DNA of 29,083 nt from a virus. Both the position numbers and the translations under genes were made by a program. The notes beneath the pieces were generated by a model. That model saw only the letters and a list, made by a program, of their open reading frames with translations. It did no database searches and was not told the DNA's origin. Position 1 is the first letter of the stretch. Each line of letters starts with the position of its first letter. Of this stretch, positions 11,144 to 27,021 are shown one piece after another. The DNA is taken from IMG/VR virus record IMGVR_UViG_3300025301_002241, positions 1 to 29,083 of that record. One strand, written 5' to 3'.

Positions 11144-12601
11144 ATGAAACGGAAAGTATTGGAAGATTTAGCCGCTGAACGCGCTGTGTTGGCAGGTTTA
11201 TGTCAATATGGTTTAGACTGTTATCTAGAAATAGACTTCGTAGATGCTGATCATTTTAGCAATGAAATGAATCAAATTATATTTCATTGTATACATAAGT
11301 CTATTTCTGAAAATGCTAAAGTAGAATTAGCTTCCATCTTATCAGCAGCCAATAATCTTGGCGTCTACGAAGCAATTCACAATAAAGATGAAATAGCATT
11401 TATTAGATCACTATTCAACTTTCCTATACATCAGGAAAATGTCCAATCGCATGCCGCCAAAATAGCTAAAATTAAATTGGCTAGAGATCTTAAGCAAACA
11501 CTTAAAGCTTGCGAAAAAGAACTCAACTCTATCACGGGTGACGAAGATCTTATTGATCTTATTTCACGAGTTGAAGAACCCATCCTTGATGCCACAGCAG
11601 ATGTATACCAAGCTTCTAATAAGCACACAGAAGTGCTGGGCGAAGATATTGATGAGTATCTCACATATCTTTCTGAAAACGTATCAGACACAGTTGGAAT
11701 ACCAACGGGATTTGATAGATATGATTTAGCTATCGGGGGCGGCCTCCGGCGTAAATGTGTGGATCTCATCGCCGCCCGTCCTAAGATTGGTAAATCTATG
11801 TTTGGAGATGCTGTGGCGCTTAATGTGGCCACCAAACTTAATATACCCGTCTTGATGTTAGACACAGAAATGTCTAAAGAAGACCATCTCAACAGAATGT
11901 TAGCAAATTTCAGTGGTGTCGAGATAAATAAAGTTGCCACTGGTAAATTTAATGAGAATGAAATAGAAAAAGAAAAGGTACATGATGCAGCAGAAAAATT
12001 AAAAAGCATTCCATATCACTATCTAAGTATTGCTGGTCAACCTTTTGAGCATATTCTGGGCATTATGCGTAAGTGGATTTATCAGCACGTAGGGTTTGAC
12101 GGTGAAGGTAGAACTAAGGATTGTTTAATAGTTTATGACTATCTTAAATTAATGGGGTCCGAAAGTATTACCAATGTAATGCAAGAATATCAAGTATTAG
12201 GATTTCAAATTACTAAGCTACATAATTTCTGCGTCAAGTATGACGTACCATGCTTGAGCTTTGTGCAGCTTAATAGAGATGGTATCACTAGGGAGTCTAC
12301 TGATGTTGTTTCTGGATCAGATAGATTGATCTGGTTATGTACAAGTTTCTCTATATTTAAGATGAAGTCAGATGAAGAAATAGCCGAGGATTCTATTGAA
12401 CATGGTAATAGAAAATTAGTTCCCGTAGTAGCGCGACATGGATGCGGCTTAGATGATGGAGATTATATTAGTGTAAAAATGTTTGGAAATATTGGTAAAA
12501 TTGAAGAAGATGAAACCCGTAACGAAATACACCGAAATGCAAGATCAAGATCAGAAGGATTTGAAATACAAGAAGAGCTTGACGAAGACACAGATAGTTA
12601 G
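11144..12601 (+). CDS. dnaB: DnaB-type replicative helicase (SF4)
   Basis: Hexameric 5'-3' helicase that unwinds the fork and works with the primase encoded next. At 485 aa it has an N-terminal helical domain (about 1-150, starting LAAERAVLAGL as in DnaB), a linker, and a RecA-like motor with Walker A ARPKIGKS (211-218), MLDTEMS (the Walker-A-proximal glutamate motif), IVYDYLKL as Walker B, and a SFVQLNRDG motif. No intein is visible at the P-loop, a common intein site in this family. The C-terminal 40 residues are charged and disordered. The gene after it begins just past its stop. Confidence 0.92.
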   Translation: MKRKVLEDLAAERAVLAGLCQYGLDCYLEIDFVDADHFSNEMNQIIFHCIHKSISENAKVELASILSAANNLGVYEAIHNKDEIAFIRSLFNFPIHQENVQSHAAKIAKIKLARDLKQTLKACEKELNSITGDEDLIDLISRVEEPILDATADVYQASNKHTEVLGEDIDEYLTYLSENVSDTVGIPTGFDRYDLAIGGGLRRKCVDLIAARPKIGKSMFGDAVALNVATKLNIPVLMLDTEMSKEDHLNRMLANFSGVEINKVATGKFNENEIEKEKVHDAAEKLKSIPYHYLSIAGQPFEHILGIMRKWIYQHVGFDGEGRTKDCLIVYDYLKLMGSESITNVMQEYQVLGFQITKLHNFCVKYDVPCLSFVQLNRDGITRESTDVVSGSDRLIWLCTSFSIFKMKSDEEIAEDSIEHGNRKLVPVVARHGCGLDDGDYISVKMFGNIGKIEEDETRNEIHRNARSRSEGFEIQEELDEDTDS

Positions 12602-12602
12602 T

Positions 12603-13613
12603 ATGTGTAATCGCCTATTTGAAAGGCTCCCCTCGTTATTAAAATTTCTTCAAGTAGAATATATGGAATTTCCTAACAGATATTCTTTTCCATGTCCGGT
12701 ACATGGTGGTGATAATCCTGAGGGATGTAGTATCTTCACAGATGGAGATTCTTCTAAAGGTAACTGGAGCTGTTGGACACAGCACTGTGAAGAGGATTTT
12801 ACAAGTAATCTATTTGGTTTCGTAAGAGGGGTAATGGCTTATCGTGGGGGACAAAAGGTATCTTTAAATCAAACGGCTGATTTTTGTTTAAAGTTTTTAG
12901 ATGTTGATATAGATAACTTAGAGGTTGCTGAACAACCCCAAAATAAAGATGTACAGTTATTGGAAATATTTGATCGTCATTTAGAGAGACGGGCCAATAA
13001 CATCAACCGAGAAGACATAAGATCCAAAATAGATATTCCGGCCCCCTACTATATTAATAGGGGGTTTTGTACAGATATTCTAAATTTATTTGATATTGGG
13101 GTATGTTTGGAAAAAAATCGACCAATGTCAGGAAGAATTGTTGTGCCAATCTATGATGAAAGCTATAATTACGTAGGATGCATGGGGCGTGCAATTCATA
13201 CCGACATGCAACCAAAATGGCTACATAGCAAAGGTTTTAAAAAGGCTTTCTTGTATGGGCTAAATATAGCCAAAGATTATATACAAAAGAGCCAAACGGT
13301 TATTTTAGTGGAAGGGCAAGGAGACGTATGGCGCATGCATGAAGCGGGATATCAAAATTGTGTTGGAATTTTTGGCTCTAGTATCAATGATGACCAATTA
13401 CTATTACTAGAACAAAGTGGAGCCCTCAATCTAGTTATATTAACAGATTTTGATGAAGCGGGTAAAAAGGCATCCAAACAAATTATCAAAAAATGCGGCA
13501 GAAGATTTAACTATTATCGTCCCACCTTATCCACTAAAGATGTTGGTGATATGGATATTGATACTATTCATCAAGAATTAAAGCCACAATTACAAGAGGT
13601 GAATTTAATATGA
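12603..13613 (+). CDS. dnaG: DNA primase (CHC2 zinc finger and TOPRIM)
   Basis: Synthesises RNA primers for lagging-strand replication. From ATG 12603 the product is 336 aa: a zinc-binding domain with Cys31-x2-His34, Cys57 and Cys62 in a PCPVHGGDNPEG...WSCWTQHCEE setting, a middle basic region, then a TOPRIM fold with LVEGQGD (Glu237) and ILTDFDEAG (Asp282, Asp284), the expected metal ligands. It is shorter than bacterial DnaG and lacks a C-terminal helicase-binding domain, as in many phage primases. The frame stays open upstream to a TTG at 12483 with ATGs at 12510 and 12537, which would overlap the helicase by up to 119 bases; 12603, one base past the helicase stop, is preferred, but no start has a good Shine-Dalgarno. 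Confidence 0.88.
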   Translation: MCNRLFERLPSLLKFLQVEYMEFPNRYSFPCPVHGGDNPEGCSIFTDGDSSKGNWSCWTQHCEEDFTSNLFGFVRGVMAYRGGQKVSLNQTADFCLKFLDVDIDNLEVAEQPQNKDVQLLEIFDRHLERRANNINREDIRSKIDIPAPYYINRGFCTDILNLFDIGVCLEKNRPMSGRIVVPIYDESYNYVGCMGRAIHTDMQPKWLHSKGFKKAFLYGLNIAKDYIQKSQTVILVEGQGDVWRMHEAGYQNCVGIFGSSINDDQLLLLEQSGALNLVILTDFDEAGKKASKQIIKKCGRRFNYYRPTLSTKDVGDMDIDTIHQELKPQLQEVNLI

Positions 13614-18191: not shown

Positions 18192-19799
18192 ATGACATTG
18201 AATTGGATACCTATCAACTGTAAAACTCACTTCAGTTTGTTGAGGGGTTTTTGTAAACCGGCCGATCTTGCGGCTACATGCAAAAAGTACGGCTACCAAG
18301 CGTGTGCTATTGCAGATTTTAAAACTGTTTCTGGGGCGGTTGATTTTCATCAGGCGTGTCTCGATAATGACATCAAGCCTTTAATAGGATGTGACTTTGA
18401 TGACTATGTTTTAATAGCAAAAAATAAAGATGGTTGGTTTGATTTAATTAAACTTGTTACCATACATCACCTATCTCCTGATATTGATACCTTAAAACAA
18501 ATAGCCCTTAAGGGAAATTTACTTTGTGTCAGCGCGAATGAAGTATATAAAAGTATCTTTGGAAAACACTTTGTTAAGTATGATTATAATAACTATAAAG
18601 TATATTATGTTAATCGCAAAGACGCAATTCCACATAGGGTTCTTCTGTGTTCTGGAATGAAAACCACACTCCCAAAAGTACAAACCAAAATTAAAAAAAA
18701 CGAAGAGATTGATAATAAAGAATTTTTTATGTCTGATGATTTCTATCTACCGACTCCCGAGGCATTTGACAACAATACCCAAGAAATTGAATTAGTGAAT
18801 AAGATTGCTAATATGTGTGAAGATTATGAAATAACAAAAAAGCCGATGCTCCCACAGTTTAAATGTCCCGATAGTATGGATGAAAATGAATACTTAAAGA
18901 AGCTGTGTCGTCATGGATGGAGGCAAAAGCTAATGGCTTCTGGAAAAGTGGCAAACAAAGAGGACGAAGCGAATTATCTAGCTAGAGTAAAAACAGAATT
19001 TGAGGTCATCTTTAAGGCAGAATTATCTGGGTATTTTTTGATTGTTCAAGATATAGTTAATTATATTAAGGAACAAGGATGGCTTGCGGGACCGGGGCGC
19101 GGTTCAGCGGCTGGATGCCTCGTATCGTATCTTCTTGGTATTACTGAAGTTGACCCTATAGAATATGGGCTTATCTTTGAAAGATTTTACAACGAGGGAC
19201 GCAATACTGAAGACTATGTTTCTTTGCCCGATATTGATGTTGATGTACCCGCTGAACACAGGGACGAAGTAATTGACTATATTCGACAAAAATATAACCC
19301 TGAAAATGTATCACAGATGATCACGTTTGGTAGACTTCAAGGAAGGGCTGCCCTAAAAGAAGTATTACGAATTAATGAAGCTGTATCATTTGCAGAAATG
19401 AACGAAATTACTCAAAACATTCCTAACGAAGCTGATATATCAGATCAATTAGAAATAGCAGACGAAAAGTCAATTATTAGATGGGCTTTGATGAATGAAT
19501 CTGAAAATCTAAAAAAATGGTGTAAAATAAATGAAGATCAAACATTGGATGGCGATCTAGCTAGTATGTTTGAACAGGCTATTAACATAGAGGGAACTAA
19601 TAAATCTCAGGGCAAGCATGCGGCAGGCGTTATAATATCACAACACAAACTAAAGGATGTTTGTCCTATGGTTAAAGATAAAACTGGTAATTTAATTGCG
19701 GCTTTTGAAATGAATGATCTTGAAAGTCAAGGTCATGTCAAGTTTGATATTTTGGGTATTGATCTTTTAAGTAAGATCATGGATATAAAGCTTTCCTAA
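18192..19799 (+). CDS. dnaE: DNA polymerase III alpha, N-terminal piece with the active-site aspartates
   Basis: This 535-aa piece carries the PHP domain (about 1-200) and the palm of a C-family polymerase. The PHP part is shortened and degenerate: the usual first His motif reads NCKTHFS, and PLIGCDF follows. The palm holds GPGRGSAAG, the PDIDVDVP motif (Asp347, Asp349, Asp351), HAAGVIIS and VKFDILGI (Asp519), so all catalytic acidic residues are on this piece. It ends only 16 residues after Asp519 with KIMDIKLS and a TAA. In intact DnaE the chain would continue directly into the segment starting the piece at 20710. No intein residues are visible at the end. ATG 18192 has only a weak upstream site. 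It must assemble with the second piece to be active. Confidence 0.93.
   Translation: MTLNWIPINCKTHFSLLRGFCKPADLAATCKKYGYQACAIADFKTVSGAVDFHQACLDNDIKPLIGCDFDDYVLIAKNKDGWFDLIKLVTIHHLSPDIDTLKQIALKGNLLCVSANEVYKSIFGKHFVKYDYNNYKVYYVNRKDAIPHRVLLCSGMKTTLPKVQTKIKKNEEIDNKEFFMSDDFYLPTPEAFDNNTQEIELVNKIANMCEDYEITKKPMLPQFKCPDSMDENEYLKKLCRHGWRQKLMASGKVANKEDEANYLARVKTEFEVIFKAELSGYFLIVQDIVNYIKEQGWLAGPGRGSAAGCLVSYLLGITEVDPIEYGLIFERFYNEGRNTEDYVSLPDIDVDVPAEHRDEVIDYIRQKYNPENVSQMITFGRLQGRAALKEVLRINEAVSFAEMNEITQNIPNEADISDQLEIADEKSIIRWALMNESENLKKWCKINEDQTLDGDLASMFEQAINIEGTNKSQGKHAAGVIISQHKLKDVCPMVKDKTGNLIAAFEMNDLESQGHVKFDILGIDLLSKIMDIKLS
19780..19794 (+). repeat. Left copy of 15-base direct repeat at the polymerase break
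   Basis: Reads TGGATATAAAGCTTT and matches the copy at 20693-20707 (TGGAGATAAAGCTCT) at 13 of 15 bases. Here it is read in the polymerase frame as DIKL just before the stop codon. The two copies bracket the 73-codon gene and the exonuclease gene. Confidence 0.75.
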
Positions 19800-19812
19800 A
19801 CAGGAGAAAAAA

Positions 19813-20034
19813 ATGGACGCTACAGCGGAAGATTATAAATCAGTAATTTTTTCTGGGTGCTCAATAGAATATAAGGATATTTCTATTTGCGATTTGAGGC
19901 ACCCTCTATCACAAAGTGGTCTTACTAGAGACATGGGATATCAAGTCTGGTCTGATAAGCATCATTGTTACAATATTTACAAAAACATTGACGAGGCGGT
20001 TAAAAAGTTCATAGCTCTCAAGGGACATGTATAA
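19813..20034 (+). CDS. Small unknown protein inside the polymerase break, 73 aa
   Basis: A 73-residue protein with a strong AGGAG 6 bases before its ATG. It reads as an N-terminal SVIFSGCSIEYKDISICDL segment, probably beta-rich, and a C-terminal IDEAVKKFIALKG helix; three cysteines (two in the first half, one in the HHCYN segment) are not arranged as a clear metal site. The stop overlaps the exonuclease start as TAATG, so the two are translated together. Family not recognised. Its place between the polymerase halves suggests it arrived with the exonuclease gene and might be a small partner of either, but that is inference. Confidence 0.65.
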   Translation: MDATAEDYKSVIFSGCSIEYKDISICDLRHPLSQSGLTRDMGYQVWSDKHHCYNIYKNIDEAVKKFIALKGHV

Positions 20035-20717
20035 TGAATTATAGAGATATTATTGTATTCGATTTTGAAACTGGTAGCGCTAATCCACATATAACACAGC
20101 CCACGCAAATTGCCGCAATAGCGATCCATGCTCGAAAATTACAATTGCAACCGGGAGGAACATTTAATAGTGAAATGCGTCCTATTATAGATGATGATAA
20201 GGCTATTAAGGCGGGTGTAGCCCCCTTAGAAGATGAGGCCCTCAAGATCACCAGAAAAAATAGGACCGATTTAGCAAAAGCGCCATTACCAAAAACTGTA
20301 TGGAAAAAATTTGCAAAATTTTGTGATAAGTATAATTTCAAAAAAACCAGTTATTATGCTCCTATCGCCGCAGGATTCAATATTAACCATTTTGATATGC
20401 CTATAGTTCAACGTATGTGTGAGCAATATGGACCATGGGATAATAAGCGAGGAGAACAAAAGATATTTAATCCTATTTTTACCATTGATGTTATGCAACA
20501 TATATACTGTTGGTTTGAAAATAACCAAGATGTCAAGGGTTATAGTATGGATTATTTGAGGGATTATTTTGGTATCGGCAAGGACAATGCTCATGACGCT
20601 TTACAGGATGTAAAAGATACAGCTAATATTTTAATCAAATTCATGCGACTTCAGAGAAGCTTATTGAAGAAAGTGAAGTTTGAAAAGTCTTTTGGAGATA
20701 AAGCTCTATATGTTTGA
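20034..20717 (+). CDS. dnaQ: DnaQ-like DEDDh 3'-5' exonuclease (proofreading)
   Basis: Removes mismatched 3' ends; the likely proofreading subunit for the split polymerase. The 227-aa protein has Exo I IVFDFETGS (Asp10, Glu12), Exo II FNINHFD (Asp121) and Exo III HDALQDVKDT (His187, Asp192), a complete DEDDh set. Residues 130-160 (GPWDNKRG...FTIDVMQHIYCW) form the segment between Exo II and III. The basic C-terminal tail ends in FGDKALYV, encoded across the right copy of the direct repeat and overlapping the start of the second polymerase piece by 8 bases. That overlap and the polymerase context strongly suggest co-translation. Confidence 0.9.
   Translation: MNYRDIIVFDFETGSANPHITQPTQIAAIAIHARKLQLQPGGTFNSEMRPIIDDDKAIKAGVAPLEDEALKITRKNRTDLAKAPLPKTVWKKFAKFCDKYNFKKTSYYAPIAAGFNINHFDMPIVQRMCEQYGPWDNKRGEQKIFNPIFTIDVMQHIYCWFENNQDVKGYSMDYLRDYFGIGKDNAHDALQDVKDTANILIKFMRLQRSLLKKVKFEKSFGDKALYV
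20693..20707 (+). repeat. Right copy of 15-base direct repeat, carrying the GGAG for the second polymerase piece
   Basis: Reads TGGAGATAAAGCTCT and matches 19780-19794 at 13 of 15 bases. In the polymerase frame it reads EIKL; in the exonuclease frame it encodes the final GDKAL. One of the two differences from the left copy turns GGAT into GGAG, which can serve as Shine-Dalgarno for ATG 20710, 12 bases downstream. Confidence 0.75.
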
Positions 20718-22251
20718 TTTATCAAATTTGCATGATGATCACGTCTGGGATTTGATATGTGAGGGTCACACCAAAGGTGTCTTTCAATTAGAATCTCAGC
20801 TAGGAAGATCATGGGCTAAAAAAGTGCGACCTAAAAACATCAATGAATTAGCGGCTCTTATTTCTCTAATTCGTCCCGGATGTTTGAAAGCATTTACGGA
20901 CGGTAAATCTATGACTCAACATTATGTTGATCGTAAAGCTAACATCGATCCTGTAATTTATCCCGATGAATCTTTAGAACATATTCTTAAAGAAACCTAT
21001 GGGGTACTTGTGTATCAGGAACAATCTATGATGATTGCTCAAGAGTTGGCTGGATTCACTCTGAAAGACGCAGATTCGCTCCGTAAGGCCATTGGAAAGA
21101 AAAAAGCTGGTTTGATGTCAGAAGTTAAAGAATCGTTTCTGAGGGGCGCTGAGAGTAAGGGGATAGTCACCAAGGAAATTGCTGAAGAAATATTTTCATG
21201 GATTGAAAAATCCAACAGATATGCCTTCAATAAATCCCACGCTGTTAGTTACGCCATCAATGCTTATTGGAGTGCTTATTGTAAATTTCATAAAAGAGTA
21301 CCATTTTACGTGTCTTACTTAAACCATTCTGATCGGAAACCAGACCCCCAAAAAGAATTAAAAGAGTTGATTATGGACGCTAAGTTATCCGATATTGAAG
21401 TATATCCACCACGCTTACAGCATCTGCACACCAACTTTGTTGCAATAAATAATAAAATTTATTTTGGCTTGCGGCATATTAAACATATTGGTCAAAAGGA
21501 ATGTGATAAAATCGAACAGTTATATAGAGATAACGATGTTTCTAATTATACGTGGATAGATGCATTAATAAATATTATATACAAAGGTAAAATTAACAAA
21601 AGGGCAGCAGTAGCCCTGATTTCAGTGGGTGCTTTTAGTGGCCCAAACAACCAACAACACAGAGAAAAAATGCTATATGAGTTTGATAGCTGGAAAGATC
21701 TTACTGCCAGAGAACAAACATATATCTCAGAAAATTACAATAGTTCTGATAGTTTATCAGAATGTATAGGCAATATGATACAAGATACTAAAATCAATAG
21801 CCGTAGGCTAATTACCGTCCTAGATATTAAACAAATTCTAGATAATCCCCCTCATGAGGTACAGGATAACATTCCATCAATAGCTCAGCACGAGGAAAAA
21901 TACATGGGATGCGCCCTTACATGTAGCAGAATGGATGCTATTAATACTAATTTTTCAACTTATATGTGTAAAGATGTGTCTCGTGGCACTATAAAAGGAA
22001 AGGTGAGTTTAATTGTTCAACTAAATTCTATTAGAACATATAAAACTAAAAAGGGTAAAAATCCCGGCCAACTGATGGCATTTGTATCTGCGGAAGACGG
22101 AAGTGGCGTTTTAGACTCTATTACAGTATTTCCAGAATGTTATCAACAATATCGTGACCTCCTAATTGAAGGAAATACAGTATTTATAAATGGAGAAATT
22201 TCCAAAAAGGACACTACTTCCGTTATAATAAATAAGGTGAGCCAAGTATGA
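20710..22251 (+). CDS. dnaE: DNA polymerase III alpha, C-terminal piece (fingers, tandem HhH, OB fold)
   Basis: The 513-aa second piece begins MFDLSNLHDDHVW and at once enters GVFQLESQ, the DnaE segment that normally follows the last catalytic aspartate. In order: fingers with LIRPGCL, YGVLVYQEQSMMIAQELAG and LRKAIGKKKAG; FNKSHAVSYA; a helix-hairpin-helix region (FGLRHIKHIG) and beta-clamp-side residues; and a C-terminal OB fold (about 420-513, from GKVSLIVQL). There are no catalytic aspartates, so it cannot polymerise alone. The frame is open to a TTG at 20680, but ATG 20710 is preferred: it has GGAG upstream and overlaps the exonuclease stop. The stop overlaps the ssb start as ATGA. Together the pieces make about 1050 aa, near the usual phage length. 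Confidence 0.93.
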   Translation: MFDLSNLHDDHVWDLICEGHTKGVFQLESQLGRSWAKKVRPKNINELAALISLIRPGCLKAFTDGKSMTQHYVDRKANIDPVIYPDESLEHILKETYGVLVYQEQSMMIAQELAGFTLKDADSLRKAIGKKKAGLMSEVKESFLRGAESKGIVTKEIAEEIFSWIEKSNRYAFNKSHAVSYAINAYWSAYCKFHKRVPFYVSYLNHSDRKPDPQKELKELIMDAKLSDIEVYPPRLQHLHTNFVAINNKIYFGLRHIKHIGQKECDKIEQLYRDNDVSNYTWIDALINIIYKGKINKRAAVALISVGAFSGPNNQQHREKMLYEFDSWKDLTAREQTYISENYNSSDSLSECIGNMIQDTKINSRRLITVLDIKQILDNPPHEVQDNIPSIAQHEEKYMGCALTCSRMDAINTNFSTYMCKDVSRGTIKGKVSLIVQLNSIRTYKTKKGKNPGQLMAFVSAEDGSGVLDSITVFPECYQQYRDLLIEGNTVFINGEISKKDTTSVIINKVSQV

Positions 22252-22586
22252 ATAAATGTCACTTTGTAGGAATGTTGGCTGATGATCCTCACTTAGTAAA
22301 TATTAATAATACATATCTAGTTACATTTACTCTAGCGATTGAAGACCACCGCAAAGATAAGGATGGTAGTAAAAAACGTAGAGTAGATTTTTTACGGTTT
22401 GAAGCATGGGCTACAGGCGCTCAAACGATTGATAAACATGCTCATAAAGGTGATTTTATGGCTGTTGAATCTATTGCAAGACAGTCAACATCGCACCAAG
22501 AAAAAAAATCGGACACAATCACTTTTAGGGTCACTAATTTTAAAATCTTTAACAATAATAAGCTAAATGAAGATGACGAAAAATAA
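22248..22586 (+). CDS. ssb: Single-stranded DNA-binding protein
   Basis: Protects single-stranded DNA at the fork. The 112-aa protein follows the bacterial OB-fold SSB pattern: MNKCHFVGMLADDP, TFTLAIED with the basic RKDKDGSKKRRVDFLRFEAW, KHAHKGDFMAVES and a final FRVTNFKIF strand. It lacks the usual long linker and the acidic tip ending in Pro-Phe, finishing instead with NEDDEK. The start is coupled to the polymerase by ATGA. The gene marks the end of the replisome cluster; a glycosyltransferase start overlaps its 3' end by 20 bases. Confidence 0.9.
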   Translation: MNKCHFVGMLADDPHLVNINNTYLVTFTLAIEDHRKDKDGSKKRRVDFLRFEAWATGAQTIDKHAHKGDFMAVESIARQSTSHQEKKSDTITFRVTNFKIFNNNKLNEDDEK

Positions 22587-24219
22587 AAAAGTATTATTCT
22601 GTTCTGAAGCATCATGGTTGCCCACGGGATATGCCGTATATACTAAAGAAGTTTTATCCCGACTTTGTCAGATAGACGGCATTGAAGTGGCTGAATTAGC
22701 TTGCTATGTTGATAGTAATGATGTTAATATTTCTTCTGTTCCATGGAAAGTGTATCCCAATAAACCTTTACCTAATGATCCCACACATGATTCATATAAA
22801 GGTAATATTACAGCTCAGTTTGGGGAACAAGCCTTTAATTCTGTCTTATTAGATTTTCAACCTGATGTAGTCATGGATATTCGTGATTGGTGGATGATTG
22901 AATTTCAGCAACGGTCTCCATTTAGAGACTTTTTTCATTGGGCTATTATGCCTACTGTAGATGCTGCCCCACAGGGTAATCAATGGATCAATACTTATGC
23001 GTCAGCTGATTCGGTGTTCGCATACTCTGAATTCGGGCGAGACATTTTGTTGCAACAATGCGATAATATAAAATTTGTGGATGTAGCATCTCCGGCTGCA
23101 AGTCAACACTTTCAACCACACCCAAACAAACAACAACACAAAATCGATATGGGGATTTCTCCAGAGTCCCTAATTGTAGGCACAGTGATGCGTAACCAAA
23201 AACGCAAACTATATCCTGATCTTTTTCAATCTTTTCGAGCTTTTGTGGATCAAGTTAATGATCCTAATGTATTTTTATATTGTCATACCTATTACCCAGA
23301 TATAGGATGGGATATTCCGGGCTTAATAAACGATAACGGTCTTTCTAATCGCGTACTCATGACTTACAAATGCAAGAATTGTCAAGATATAACTGTAGAC
23401 TTTTTTCAAGATGCTATTAAATATTGCAATAAATGTCAACATTTTAATAGCCACTTAGTAGGTATTAATAATTCAATAGGCGAACCAGATTTAGCCAGCA
23501 TATATAACCTATTTGATATATATGTACAATATGCCAACAGTGAGGGTTTTGGGATGCCGCAACTTGAGGCTGCTAATTGTGGGCTTCCCGTTATATCTAC
23601 TTATTATTCTGCGATGCAGTCTGTGATTGATAAGATTGGCGGCATGGGTATTGTGCCTCTAAGCTTTTATGTGGAATGTGAAACTGGTTGTAATAGGGCA
23701 GTTCCGAATAATGAAGTATTTGTTAATACTCTTGTCGAACTACATAAAAACAAATATAAGTTACGAGACATTGGCGCAGAAACTAAAAAGAATGCTGTGG
23801 CAAATTATAGTTGGGATAAAACGGCGGATGTGTGGGCTAAGCATATTCTACAGTTAGAACCAAAAGATCCGTCAACCACTTGGTTTTCTCAACCCCATAT
23901 CCCACAGCCAGCCACAGAAGTTCCAGAAGAAATAATTTCTATAGTAGACAAGGTTGATTTTATATTTAACAATATACTACATAAACCACAGTGGATAGGG
24001 AGCTATTTGTGGAAGCGTGTGTTGCGAGATATTACATTTGGATATAAATGTGAAAACATAACTAAAGACTTTTACTTTAACGAATCACATATTCAGTCTT
24101 ATACTGGAAATACTCCCTTCTCACTAGAGCAAGCATGCCAAGAAATGGTTAACTTTAGAAATCAAATAAATCAGTGGGAACAGTCGCGCGCCCAAATGAT
24201 GCAACAAGAAGGATATTAA
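22567..24219 (+). CDS. GT4-like glycosyltransferase with an inserted zinc ribbon
   Basis: Transfers a sugar from an activated donor; donor and acceptor unknown. The 550-aa protein has a GT-B layout: N-terminal half beginning KVLFCSEASWLPTGYAVYT with the acceptor loop, a middle strand GTVMRNQKRKLYPDLFQSF that starts the donor domain, and NSEGFGMPQLEAANCGLPVIST with the E-x7-E donor motif. Between those last two lies KCKNC at Cys269/Cys272 and CNKC at Cys287/Cys290, a likely zinc ribbon absent from usual GT4 enzymes. The last 100 residues (after residue 450) form an extra helical tail. Start ATG 22567 or 22573; it overlaps ssb by 20 bases. It opens the glycan block. Confidence 0.88.
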   Translation: MKMTKNKKVLFCSEASWLPTGYAVYTKEVLSRLCQIDGIEVAELACYVDSNDVNISSVPWKVYPNKPLPNDPTHDSYKGNITAQFGEQAFNSVLLDFQPDVVMDIRDWWMIEFQQRSPFRDFFHWAIMPTVDAAPQGNQWINTYASADSVFAYSEFGRDILLQQCDNIKFVDVASPAASQHFQPHPNKQQHKIDMGISPESLIVGTVMRNQKRKLYPDLFQSFRAFVDQVNDPNVFLYCHTYYPDIGWDIPGLINDNGLSNRVLMTYKCKNCQDITVDFFQDAIKYCNKCQHFNSHLVGINNSIGEPDLASIYNLFDIYVQYANSEGFGMPQLEAANCGLPVISTYYSAMQSVIDKIGGMGIVPLSFYVECETGCNRAVPNNEVFVNTLVELHKNKYKLRDIGAETKKNAVANYSWDKTADVWAKHILQLEPKDPSTTWFSQPHIPQPATEVPEEIISIVDKVDFIFNNILHKPQWIGSYLWKRVLRDITFGYKCENITKDFYFNESHIQSYTGNTPFSLEQACQEMVNFRNQINQWEQSRAQMMQQEGY

Positions 24220-24220
24220 T

Positions 24221-24907
24221 ATGAATCACAGTAAACATCCAGCAATACAAAAGTCTATCGATGAGGCCCAAGGTACTATACCGGACAACTTTAATGGACA
24301 GTTATTTCAAGATGTGTTTGTGAATGAAGTATTGGATATTGACAATGGTTTTTTTGTGGATATAGGGGCTGGCACAGATGGTGTTAGAAATATGCCTATG
24401 AGTTTCTTCAGTAATACATATAACCTTGAAAGACGAAGAAACTGGACGGGTATTGCTATAGATTATGATAAAGAATACATAGATACGGCCCAATCTCATC
24501 GCCGTTGTCAGTGTGTGTGTGCTGATTTAATGGCAACCAATATAAATGATATATTAAAAGAATCCAACTGTCCTTCTGATGTAAACTATTTATCATTTGA
24601 TGTGGACGAGGCCCAACCAAAGGTTCTTAGCGAACTCGATCTTTCAAAATACAGATTCCAAATAATTACATATGAACATAATTTGTACCAAGGCTGCGAC
24701 AAAGATCAAAAAATATCGAGAAACAAATTCAAAGAAGCAGGATACGAAATCTTGTGCGGAAACGTGATACTACACGATGTCGGTGTCGTAGAAGACTGGT
24801 ACGTACACTCAGAATTTTTTGATCAATACGCACACTTTCAGTACCACGACATGAATTGTTTAACTATCGTAAACAATATAATTAGAAACAAACGCAAGCC
24901 CAAATGA
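24221..24907 (+). CDS. FkbM-family methyltransferase
   Basis: SAM-dependent O-methyltransferase family often found with glycan genes, where it methylates sugar hydroxyls. The 228-aa protein shows GQLFQDVFVNEVL, GFFVDIGAGTDG (SAM-binding loop, about residues 43-54), NTYNLERRRNWTGIAIDYD, YLSFDVDEAQPKVL and YRFQIITYEHN, all in the order of FkbM proteins. The C-terminal half is Tyr/His-rich, ending NIIRNKRKPK. AAGGA lies just before ATG 24221. A methylated capping sugar is the simplest guess; the substrate is not shown. Confidence 0.87.
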   Translation: MNHSKHPAIQKSIDEAQGTIPDNFNGQLFQDVFVNEVLDIDNGFFVDIGAGTDGVRNMPMSFFSNTYNLERRRNWTGIAIDYDKEYIDTAQSHRRCQCVCADLMATNINDILKESNCPSDVNYLSFDVDEAQPKVLSELDLSKYRFQIITYEHNLYQGCDKDQKISRNKFKEAGYEILCGNVILHDVGVVEDWYVHSEFFDQYAHFQYHDMNCLTIVNNIIRNKRKPK

Positions 24908-24926
24908 AGCAAGAAAGAGAAGTTCG

Positions 24927-26012
24927 ATGAAAGTACTTTACATAGGACATTATAAAGATGGTACCGGATGGGCCAATGCTGCCATTAATAATATACTGGC
25001 GCTCGATTCTGTAGGTGTTGAAGTAGTGCCGCGTGCTATTACATTTGAAACCGAGCCAAAATCATATCCTAACAGAATCCAAGAACTAGAACAAGCTTCC
25101 AGTGAAGGGTGTGATATTTGTATACAACATACATTACCTCACCTATATTCTTATAATTCCAATTTTAAAAACATAGGATTTATTGCCAGCGAGACTAACC
25201 ATTTCAAAGACAGCTCATGGCAGCATTATGCTAACCTAATGGATGAAATATGGGTGCCCAGTATGCATACTAGGGTTGCATGTCGTATGAGTAATATAAA
25301 GGTTCCGGTCAATATTGCTCCTCATTCTTTGGATACTTCATCCTATAGTAAAATGTTAGAGGGAAATAAAATTCAGGAACTGGTTCACACATTCAACTTT
25401 GCTTTTGTTGGAGAGTTTATAGAAAGAAAAAATGTACAAGCATTGATACGCGCATTTCACACAGAATTTGGAGTGTCCGAACCTGTGAATCTATTTATTA
25501 AAACATCCCAACAATCCTTAGATTATGTGCAAAACTATTGTAAGCAAATCAAGAATGGGTTAAAGCTACGAAAAAGATATAAAGAAGAAATTGTTGTATG
25601 TGGATATCTTAGTAAAGAAGATTATGTGTCAGTGTTGTCTCAGTGTCATTCTTTTGTAATGCCCAGTCGAGGAGAGGCGTTTTGTATTCCGGCTCTTGAA
25701 GCTATGGCGCTTGGTATACCAGTAATCTATACTAAAAAAACGGGGATGGACGACTTTTGCTTAGGAACGGCTGTGAAATCTATACAAGTTCCGTGTGTGG
25801 GTGCCATATCTACGCTTCCTAATCTATGTACTGCAAACAATAAGTGGGCAGAAATAAATGTCGAAGAGTTGGCCATTGCCATGCGTAAAGTGTATATGCA
25901 ATGGCAAACTGAAGCATCGCAAAAACAACGTAAGGCATCTATTAAAAAAGCTAAATCATATAGCCACCAAAAGGTTGGAGCACAGTTAAAGGAATTATTG
26001 AATGACAGCTAA
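24927..26012 (+). CDS. GT4-like glycosyltransferase
   Basis: A 361-residue GT-B glycosyltransferase. Begins MKVLYIGHYKDGTGWANAA, the glycine-rich acceptor-side loop; IGFIASETNHFKDSSW and DEIWVPSMHTR lie mid-domain; FAFVGEFIERKNVQALIRAF opens the donor domain; and MPSRGEAFCIPALEAMALG carries the E-x7-E motif. No signal or membrane segment is visible, so it is cytosolic. AGAGAAG precedes ATG 24927. It overlaps the next glycosyltransferase by 11 bases, so the two are made together and may act in series. Confidence 0.88.
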   Translation: MKVLYIGHYKDGTGWANAAINNILALDSVGVEVVPRAITFETEPKSYPNRIQELEQASSEGCDICIQHTLPHLYSYNSNFKNIGFIASETNHFKDSSWQHYANLMDEIWVPSMHTRVACRMSNIKVPVNIAPHSLDTSSYSKMLEGNKIQELVHTFNFAFVGEFIERKNVQALIRAFHTEFGVSEPVNLFIKTSQQSLDYVQNYCKQIKNGLKLRKRYKEEIVVCGYLSKEDYVSVLSQCHSFVMPSRGEAFCIPALEAMALGIPVIYTKKTGMDDFCLGTAVKSIQVPCVGAISTLPNLCTANNKWAEINVEELAIAMRKVYMQWQTEASQKQRKASIKKAKSYSHQKVGAQLKELLNDS

Positions 26013-27021
26013 CGCTACCCCAATGGCCGTTAGGTCTATATTACGGCGTCAACAGCGACAAGAGCCGCTGAATATATTGACATTTTGTACCCATGAAAGA
26101 TATGAACAAAAACTGTGTCAAACGGGTCACAATTTTTATTCAATCAACTATGGTAAAGAATGGGATACTGATTATGGTGACATTCCTGAAAATTATTACG
26201 TTATAAACGAAGTACCGTCTTACATAAATTTTGATTTGATTTTATGTCATACCGCTTGTGATAGACTTCGTGTATCACATAATATTAAAAATGATTTTAA
26301 TATACCCATACTGCTCCATATGCACGTACTACCAGACATAAGAAACGATGTGGCTACACAGGTAAATCAGTTTCAAATCGCTACTGCTAATGTAGACCAA
26401 AAGAGTTTTATTTCTGAATTTAGTATGAAGGCATGGGGATCTACTGTACAGGATGCGACATTTATTGAACATGGCGTAGAGACAGACTTTTGGTCTGTTG
26501 ACACAGAAATAGAACGTGATAATGCTTGTTTGTCGGTTGTAAATGATTGGCCTAATAGAGATTGGTGTTGTGGTTGGGAACTATGGAAAAATACAATAGG
26601 AATTAATACTCCAGAAGCGCTTCCAGTCAAGGTGTTTGGGAAAAGTCCCGGTTTTTCAGAACCCGCTCAATCAATAGAACATCTACGGCAAATTTACCAA
26701 ACGTCTAAGATATTTTATAATACCTCATTACACTCCCCAGTGCCAACATCATTGCTGGAAGCCATGGCGTGCGGATGTGCAGTAGTATCAACAGCTACAT
26801 GCATGATTCCCGAAATTATAGAACATGAGAAAAATGGTTTTATATCTAACGATCCCAATGAGCTACGGCAATTTCTAGAAGTGTTACTTAATGATGATAA
26901 ATTGGCGCAACAGCTTGGCCAAGAAGCTAGAAATACCATGGTAGAAAAATACAATCTACAAAGGCATATAGATAACTGGAACAAAATATTTTATGCAACA
27001 ATTGCAGCCTATAAGGACTAA
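26002..27021 (+). CDS. GT4-like glycosyltransferase
   Basis: A 339-residue GT-B enzyme. The N-terminal domain (NILTFCTHERYEQKL then DLILCHTACDRLRV) is short; IEHGVETDFWSVD marks the domain junction and SLLEAMACGCAVVST the donor site. In that donor motif the first glutamate is replaced (SPVPTSLLE instead of E-x7-E), which could alter donor binding. The 11-base overlap with the previous gene implies coupling. Cytosolic, no membrane segment. Donor and acceptor unknown. Confidence 0.82.
   Translation: MTANATPMAVRSILRRQQRQEPLNILTFCTHERYEQKLCQTGHNFYSINYGKEWDTDYGDIPENYYVINEVPSYINFDLILCHTACDRLRVSHNIKNDFNIPILLHMHVLPDIRNDVATQVNQFQIATANVDQKSFISEFSMKAWGSTVQDATFIEHGVETDFWSVDTEIERDNACLSVVNDWPNRDWCCGWELWKNTIGINTPEALPVKVFGKSPGFSEPAQSIEHLRQIYQTSKIFYNTSLHSPVPTSLLEAMACGCAVVSTATCMIPEIIEHEKNGFISNDPNELRQFLEVLLNDDKLAQQLGQEARNTMVEKYNLQRHIDNWNKIFYATIAAYKD

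Follow-up and report, generated by a model that had tools for sequence, protein, structure and literature searches.

The window analysed here, the whole 29,083-nucleotide stretch, is a 29-kb virus record with a replication locus at 18192-22251 on the + strand, where the gene order is dnaE-N, a 73-aa ORF, a DnaQ-like exonuclease gene, dnaE-C and an SSB gene (Table 1). An earlier note on this DNA had described a DnaE-type polymerase III alpha gene in two pieces with an exonuclease gene between them, and the ORFs, motifs and domains that we recovered are those it claimed. Elsewhere in the window, at 11144-13613, a DnaB-like helicase ORF and the next ORF, a primase with a TTG start, overlap by ~119 nt, and the true primase start probably lies further downstream than that TTG. 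Glycosyltransferases adjoin the replication genes at 22567-27021, with Pfam Glycos_transf_1 matches at 24927-26012 and 26002-27021 and an ORF at 22567-24219 that was assigned to this class by eye only.

Table 1. Features of the split dnaE locus, in window coordinates.
Feature	Position	Strand	Basis or remark
dnaE-N, 535 aa: PHP, palm, thumb, all catalytic Asp (D347, D349, D519)	18192..19799	+	Pfam, alignment, AlphaFold
PDIDVDVP catalytic motif (D347, D349)	19227..19250	+	both Asp invariant in relatives
VKFDILGI catalytic motif (D519)	19737..19760	+	Asp invariant in relatives
73-aa ORF, AGGAG before start	19813..20034	+	homologues in most relatives of the window's own branch
dnaQ-like DEDDh 3'-5' exonuclease, 227 aa (D10, E12, D121, H187, D192)	20034..20717	+	Pfam, PHROG
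dnaE-C, 523 aa from TTG 20680 or 513 aa from ATG 20710	20680..22251	+	Pfam fingers, HHH_6, weak OB
FNKSH motif within dnaE-C, no intein present	21226..21240	+	motif position
SSB gene, directly 3' of dnaE-C in most relatives	22248..22586	+	Pfam SSB 2.5e-11

Evaluating the two pieces individually, we found that PHP, palm-thumb, fingers and HhH follow one another in DnaE order across them. The first piece, said in the earlier note to carry the PHP domain and every catalytic aspartate, does carry them: Pfam matched PHP and DNA_pol3_alpha (9.3e-73), the DnaE-type catalytic triad is present in PDxD and KxDxLG motifs, and its three aspartates are invariant in an alignment of 46 diverse relatives. An AlphaFold model of dnaE-N (pLDDT 92.3) matched Pol III alpha structures with E values of 1e-30 to 1e-36; its final elements are a palm strand at 516-523 and a helix at 524-534, with no ragged end, such that dnaE-N is predicted with high confidence to fold as a self-contained unit.

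The second piece had been assigned the fingers, HhH and OB fold, and here Pfam matched the finger domain (1.5e-44) and HHH_6 (4.3e-11), with the OB fold in its place after the HhH as a weak match (2.9e-4, below the curated Pfam cut-off) at residues 458-519 of the 523-aa reading. A C-terminal tau-binding domain, which is found in E. coli DnaE1 and missing from some DnaE, is absent here, dnaE-C terminating right after the OB region. For comparison, the OB fold of E. coli alpha spans residues 960-1071 and its tail 1079-1160 (PMC4703070). Judged by its sequence context, dnaE-C probably starts at the ATG at 20710 rather than the TTG at 20680; this ATG overlaps the 3' end of dnaQ, shortly ahead of its stop codon, and has GGAG upstream, and a start MFDINNFDD is conserved in relatives. 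Shine-Dalgarno motifs preceded 31 of 117 dnaE-C starts compared with 9.5% of internal Met codons, a modest enrichment.

Mapping the break onto solved structures revealed that dnaE-N aligns up to residue 563 of E. coli alpha, its last 8 residues extrapolating to ~571, and that dnaE-C resumes near residue 585, which together place the break at the palm-fingers connector. We thus recovered the distance that had been given earlier (16 residues past D519) and the resumption of the second piece where an intact DnaE would continue, while the location "in the palm" held only in part, because the break lies near the palm end but, by the E. coli alignment, at the connector and not in the palm proper. 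The FNKSH motif sits well inside dnaE-C, at its residue 173, so the break is not at the cyanobacterial split-intein site, and the absence of intein residues was likewise borne out, as a Pfam search that recovered a Hint domain in the relative L125 returned no intein domain for the break in the window. Palm and fingers of E. coli alpha were fitted as one rigid body in a cryo-EM study (eLife, PMC4703070), which implies that the two phage chains would need to pack across a normally continuous unit.

Between the halves, and in agreement with the claim that the exonuclease is encoded inside the break, lies a dnaQ gene whose product matched Pfam RNase_T (6e-13) and phrog_192 (DNA polymerase exonuclease subunit) and whose five DEDDh residues are invariant in 12 diverse members. 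From its gene position and family, this DEDDh exonuclease would most likely be the proofreading (epsilon-like) subunit of the phage replicase. The PHP metal ligands HxH are replaced in window-type members (N-C-K in the window) and kept as H-x-H in others, and a window-type PHP lacking these ligands suggests that the DEDDh enzyme is the likely proofreader. The 73-aa ORF also lies within the break and has omega mostly <0.12; it returned no Pfam or PHROG match, and its model (pLDDT 82) matched no fold. In the L299 branch the slot between dnaE-N and dnaQ is filled by a 59-aa ORF (6868-7044 in L299, and at other loci of the branch) that has a conserved SCC motif and no apparent relation to the 73-aa ORF. 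A role for the 73-aa ORF as a theta-like subunit was considered and dropped, and we claim no role for it, since it has no family or fold match and an apparently unrelated ORF takes the same slot in another branch.

To describe the breadth of this arrangement, we searched viral contigs with dnaE-N, dnaE-C, the exonuclease, the fused relative described below and a mixed alignment, which returned more than 300 loci, among which 177 distinct exonuclease DNA sequences had both dnaE halves on the same locus. The gene is split at the same place in 176 of these 177, with the exonuclease between the halves in all 176, and a search for an uninterrupted gene thus yielded one fused relative. At 90% amino-acid identity these relatives fall into 101 clusters and at 50% into 6, and they derive from many independent metagenomes. 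The dnaE-N and dnaE-C searches were independent of the exonuclease, and wherever they recovered both halves across the junction on a viral contig, the exonuclease was present too. The same gene order occurs on six MAG contigs, labelled Flavobacteriales (2), Chitinophagia, SAR202 and a Lokiarchaeota bin (2 contigs), labels too mixed for a host to be named. The two contigs binned as Candidatus Lokiarchaeota (L344, L345) carry the split dnaE locus and are most likely phage contigs within that bin. Among 50,697 named-phage records the window's dnaQ had no match, the best dnaE-N matches were ~36% identical, and no cultured member was found. The split is therefore near-universal in a large group of uncultured tailed phages and not confined to a single genome.

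The interval between the halves ranges from ~700 to 3600 nt among relatives, and in places further whole genes are inserted, including methyltransferase-like and glycosyltransferase-like genes (both recognized by eye), Endonuclease VII and HNH_3. No homing-type endonuclease lies between the halves in the window; in several relatives such endonuclease genes (Endonuclease VII, HNH_3) occupy the N/ORF, ORF/dnaQ and dnaQ/C junctions. Further interruptions of the polymerase were seen at other sites. L125 (6700-9020), L054, L119 and L126 have a split intein at FNKSH whose two parts are separated by a NUMOD3/DUF559 endonuclease-like gene; in L054, L119 and L126 this comes in addition to the palm-fingers split. 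In L066 (6568-13256), as in L062, L063 and L065, dnaE is in several pieces with intein-like sequence at a GRGS|AAG site, L066 having a further interruption in N, followed by dnaQ and then C. The endonuclease genes at the junctions, together with the split inteins at FNKSH and GRGS, point to the locus as a hot spot for such elements. The break itself may plausibly have originated through an endonuclease, with the small ORF and dnaQ moving in later, and tandem duplication and loss around an upstream dnaQ would be another route.

The one fused relative (L124/L125) has N and C in one frame, with a homologue of the 73-aa ORF and dnaQ directly upstream. It carries the same domains as its split relatives, and this same domain set, held by one chain here and by two in relatives, lends indirect support to one enzyme being formed from two chains. 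A first tree placed L124 at the base, whereas wider sampling placed it inside the split group, a position with which an unrooted exonuclease tree agrees. On these trees L124/L125 would be a re-fusion; the alternative, in which the fused form is ancestral, appeared in 8% of bootstrap trees and is not rejected (AU p 0.25).

We next considered whether the split enzyme is the replicase. We examined 20 contigs, ten with lengths of 104-176 kb and another ten with lengths of 126-244 kb; each had a single finger domain, which in one case was divided by an additional interruption, and neither PolA nor PolB was matched. The split DnaE is thus the only C-family polymerase in these contigs, which are classed as linear and may be incomplete, so that the absence of other polymerases is no proof. 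Terminase matches in 10 of 12 contigs identify them as tailed phages. A search of 12 contigs for a beta clamp was negative, and the host clamp may be used instead. Pairwise omega was ~0.02-0.09 for dnaE-N and dnaE-C and up to 0.07 for dnaQ, and all three genes are under strong purifying selection.

Taken together, we hold with high confidence that a two-chain replicative polymerase of the C family (DnaE type) is encoded here, its chains joined non-covalently and most likely proofread by the embedded DnaQ. In such an enzyme dnaE-N would provide the PHP, palm, thumb and three catalytic carboxylates and dnaE-C the fingers, HhH and OB fold; the two chains, translated from one gene cluster and perhaps assembled co-translationally, would pair at the palm-fingers connector with no peptide bond between them, and the pair would be active as a polymerase, with the DEDDh exonuclease from the break presumably acting as its epsilon-like proofreader. 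Non-covalent pairing is the economical reading, given that there is no intein, no intron RNA, a variable interval and a conserved dnaE-C start. We can also imagine that the break is itself an adaptation, in which one transcript yields alpha-N, then the exonuclease, then alpha-C, the exonuclease taking its place at the PHP side before the chain with the fingers completes the enzyme, and the replicase core being obligately three-chain. We find this doubtful; if it were true, core assembly would control fidelity or timing and the fused lineage would be a reversal.

Other explanations would restore a continuous polymerase. Group I introns interrupt essential genes in other large phages (PMC12363816), and the break in the window is bordered on either side by a frame-matched repeat, ATAAAGCT (residues IKL), such that dnaE could in principle be one continuous protein with the exonuclease in a spliced or translationally bypassed segment. 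Yet the search for intron families was negative for the whole window at gathering threshold, for the break with E values up to 10 and for eight relatives, and no bypass signal was found at the break. The repeat is missing from relatives, for which reason we rejected it as an insertion scar or hop site, and an interval of variable length that can take up whole other genes, together with the conserved start that dnaE-C has of its own, leaves splicing or bypass improbable. Joining of the halves by split-intein protein trans-splicing has a precedent within this very group in the four relatives with split inteins at FNKSH and endonuclease genes between them. At the window's break, however, the Pfam search that detects Hint in L125 finds no intein domain, and dnaE-N ending 16 residues past D519 and dnaE-C beginning at its own Met leave no space for intein halves, which makes trans-splicing extremely unlikely.

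Doubts of another kind concern whether the pieces work at all. They might be decaying or repurposed, with replication of the phage left to the host polymerase or some other enzyme; the missing beta clamp fits this in that host replisome parts are probably used, and the contigs, if incomplete, could have concealed another polymerase. Against it, both halves have an omega far below 1, the catalytic residues do not vary, retention is almost universal, and the 20 contigs yielded one C-family and no A- or B-family polymerase; we give this explanation little credence. A lone contig could be misassembled, but 176 distinct sequences drawn from many metagenomes, as well as six MAG contigs, show the identical order, which excludes an assembly error for practical purposes.

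Functional split phage polymerases are already known, and the window type is distinct from split-intein DnaE and from minimal jumbo-phage Pol III. The split 43A/43B polymerase of Aeromonas phage 25 co-purifies and polymerises, and the split nrdA of Aeh1 is active (PMC2988022). These cases, 43A/43B occurring in the T4-like Aeromonas phages 25 and 44RR, likewise yield a replication enzyme as two chains from a broken gene; they differ in concerning a B-family polymerase or an RNR, in being found in few phages, and in having a homing endonuclease or an untranslated spacer, and no conserved proofreading gene, between the pieces. In group 2.2 jumbo phages a minimal Pol III alpha is split, and its two standalone proteins are predicted to function as such; this is likewise a C-family module in two proteins, though one without the other Pol III domains, with the genes distant from each other and PolB present (PMC7824862), whereas the window group keeps PHP, HhH and a probable OB fold, has its genes clustered and yielded no PolB. 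Cyanobacterial DnaE is also encoded by two genes, with the break at FNKSH and covalent joining by an intein, according to work cited in PMC3919608; the window has neither that break nor an intein.

Bacterial PolC resembles the window in encoding a DEDDh exonuclease inside the polymerase, inserted in its PHP, and differs in being one polypeptide; an N-Q-N pattern in L346-L347 is presumably such a PolC-type PHP insertion. Fractured genes with split inteins and endonucleases were reportedly described by Dassa et al. in 2009. L125, L054, L119 and L126 resemble these at a second site of the same polymerase, whereas the window's break has no intein and has dnaQ in place of an endonuclease.

The same connector is broken in distant named phages. 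We sampled 60 of 1,345 named-phage records with DnaE, and the palm-fingers junction was uninterrupted in all whose match covers it, with the exception of Corynebacterium phage P1201 (gp59/gp58), in which the first piece ends KLDCLGL...V and the second starts either at MYDLPYDD or, a few codons earlier, at a GTG preceded by GGAGG. In Rossellomorea phage phiT1 (gp20/gp18) the connector is also broken, with a 49-aa ORF between the pieces. Neither break holds an intein-sized sequence or an exonuclease; these phages share the break point of the window group with nothing (P1201) or the 49-aa ORF (phiT1) between. Because their DnaEs are distant from the window group (phiT1 being placed in a tree, P1201 in none), these were probably separate events, and the connector appears to be a recurrent, tolerated break point. 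None of the papers we found, few of them from subscription journals, describes the window's arrangement.

The split polymerase is old, nearly universal in its phage group and built unlike the two-piece enzymes on record, and the locus is real, conserved and probably functional. C-family replicative polymerases are usually treated as a single large chain, whereas a phage group with genomes of at least 100 kb appears to depend on a two-chain form. Annotation pipelines may mislabel the halves as two polymerases or as fragments. The natural split site could be of use for biochemistry, for engineering and for studies of palm-fingers cooperation. The unusual feature is that the exonuclease gene stays between the dnaE halves, and this near-fixed dnaQ position, together with the single fused lineage, makes a role of gene order in the assembly of a proofreading polymerase testable.
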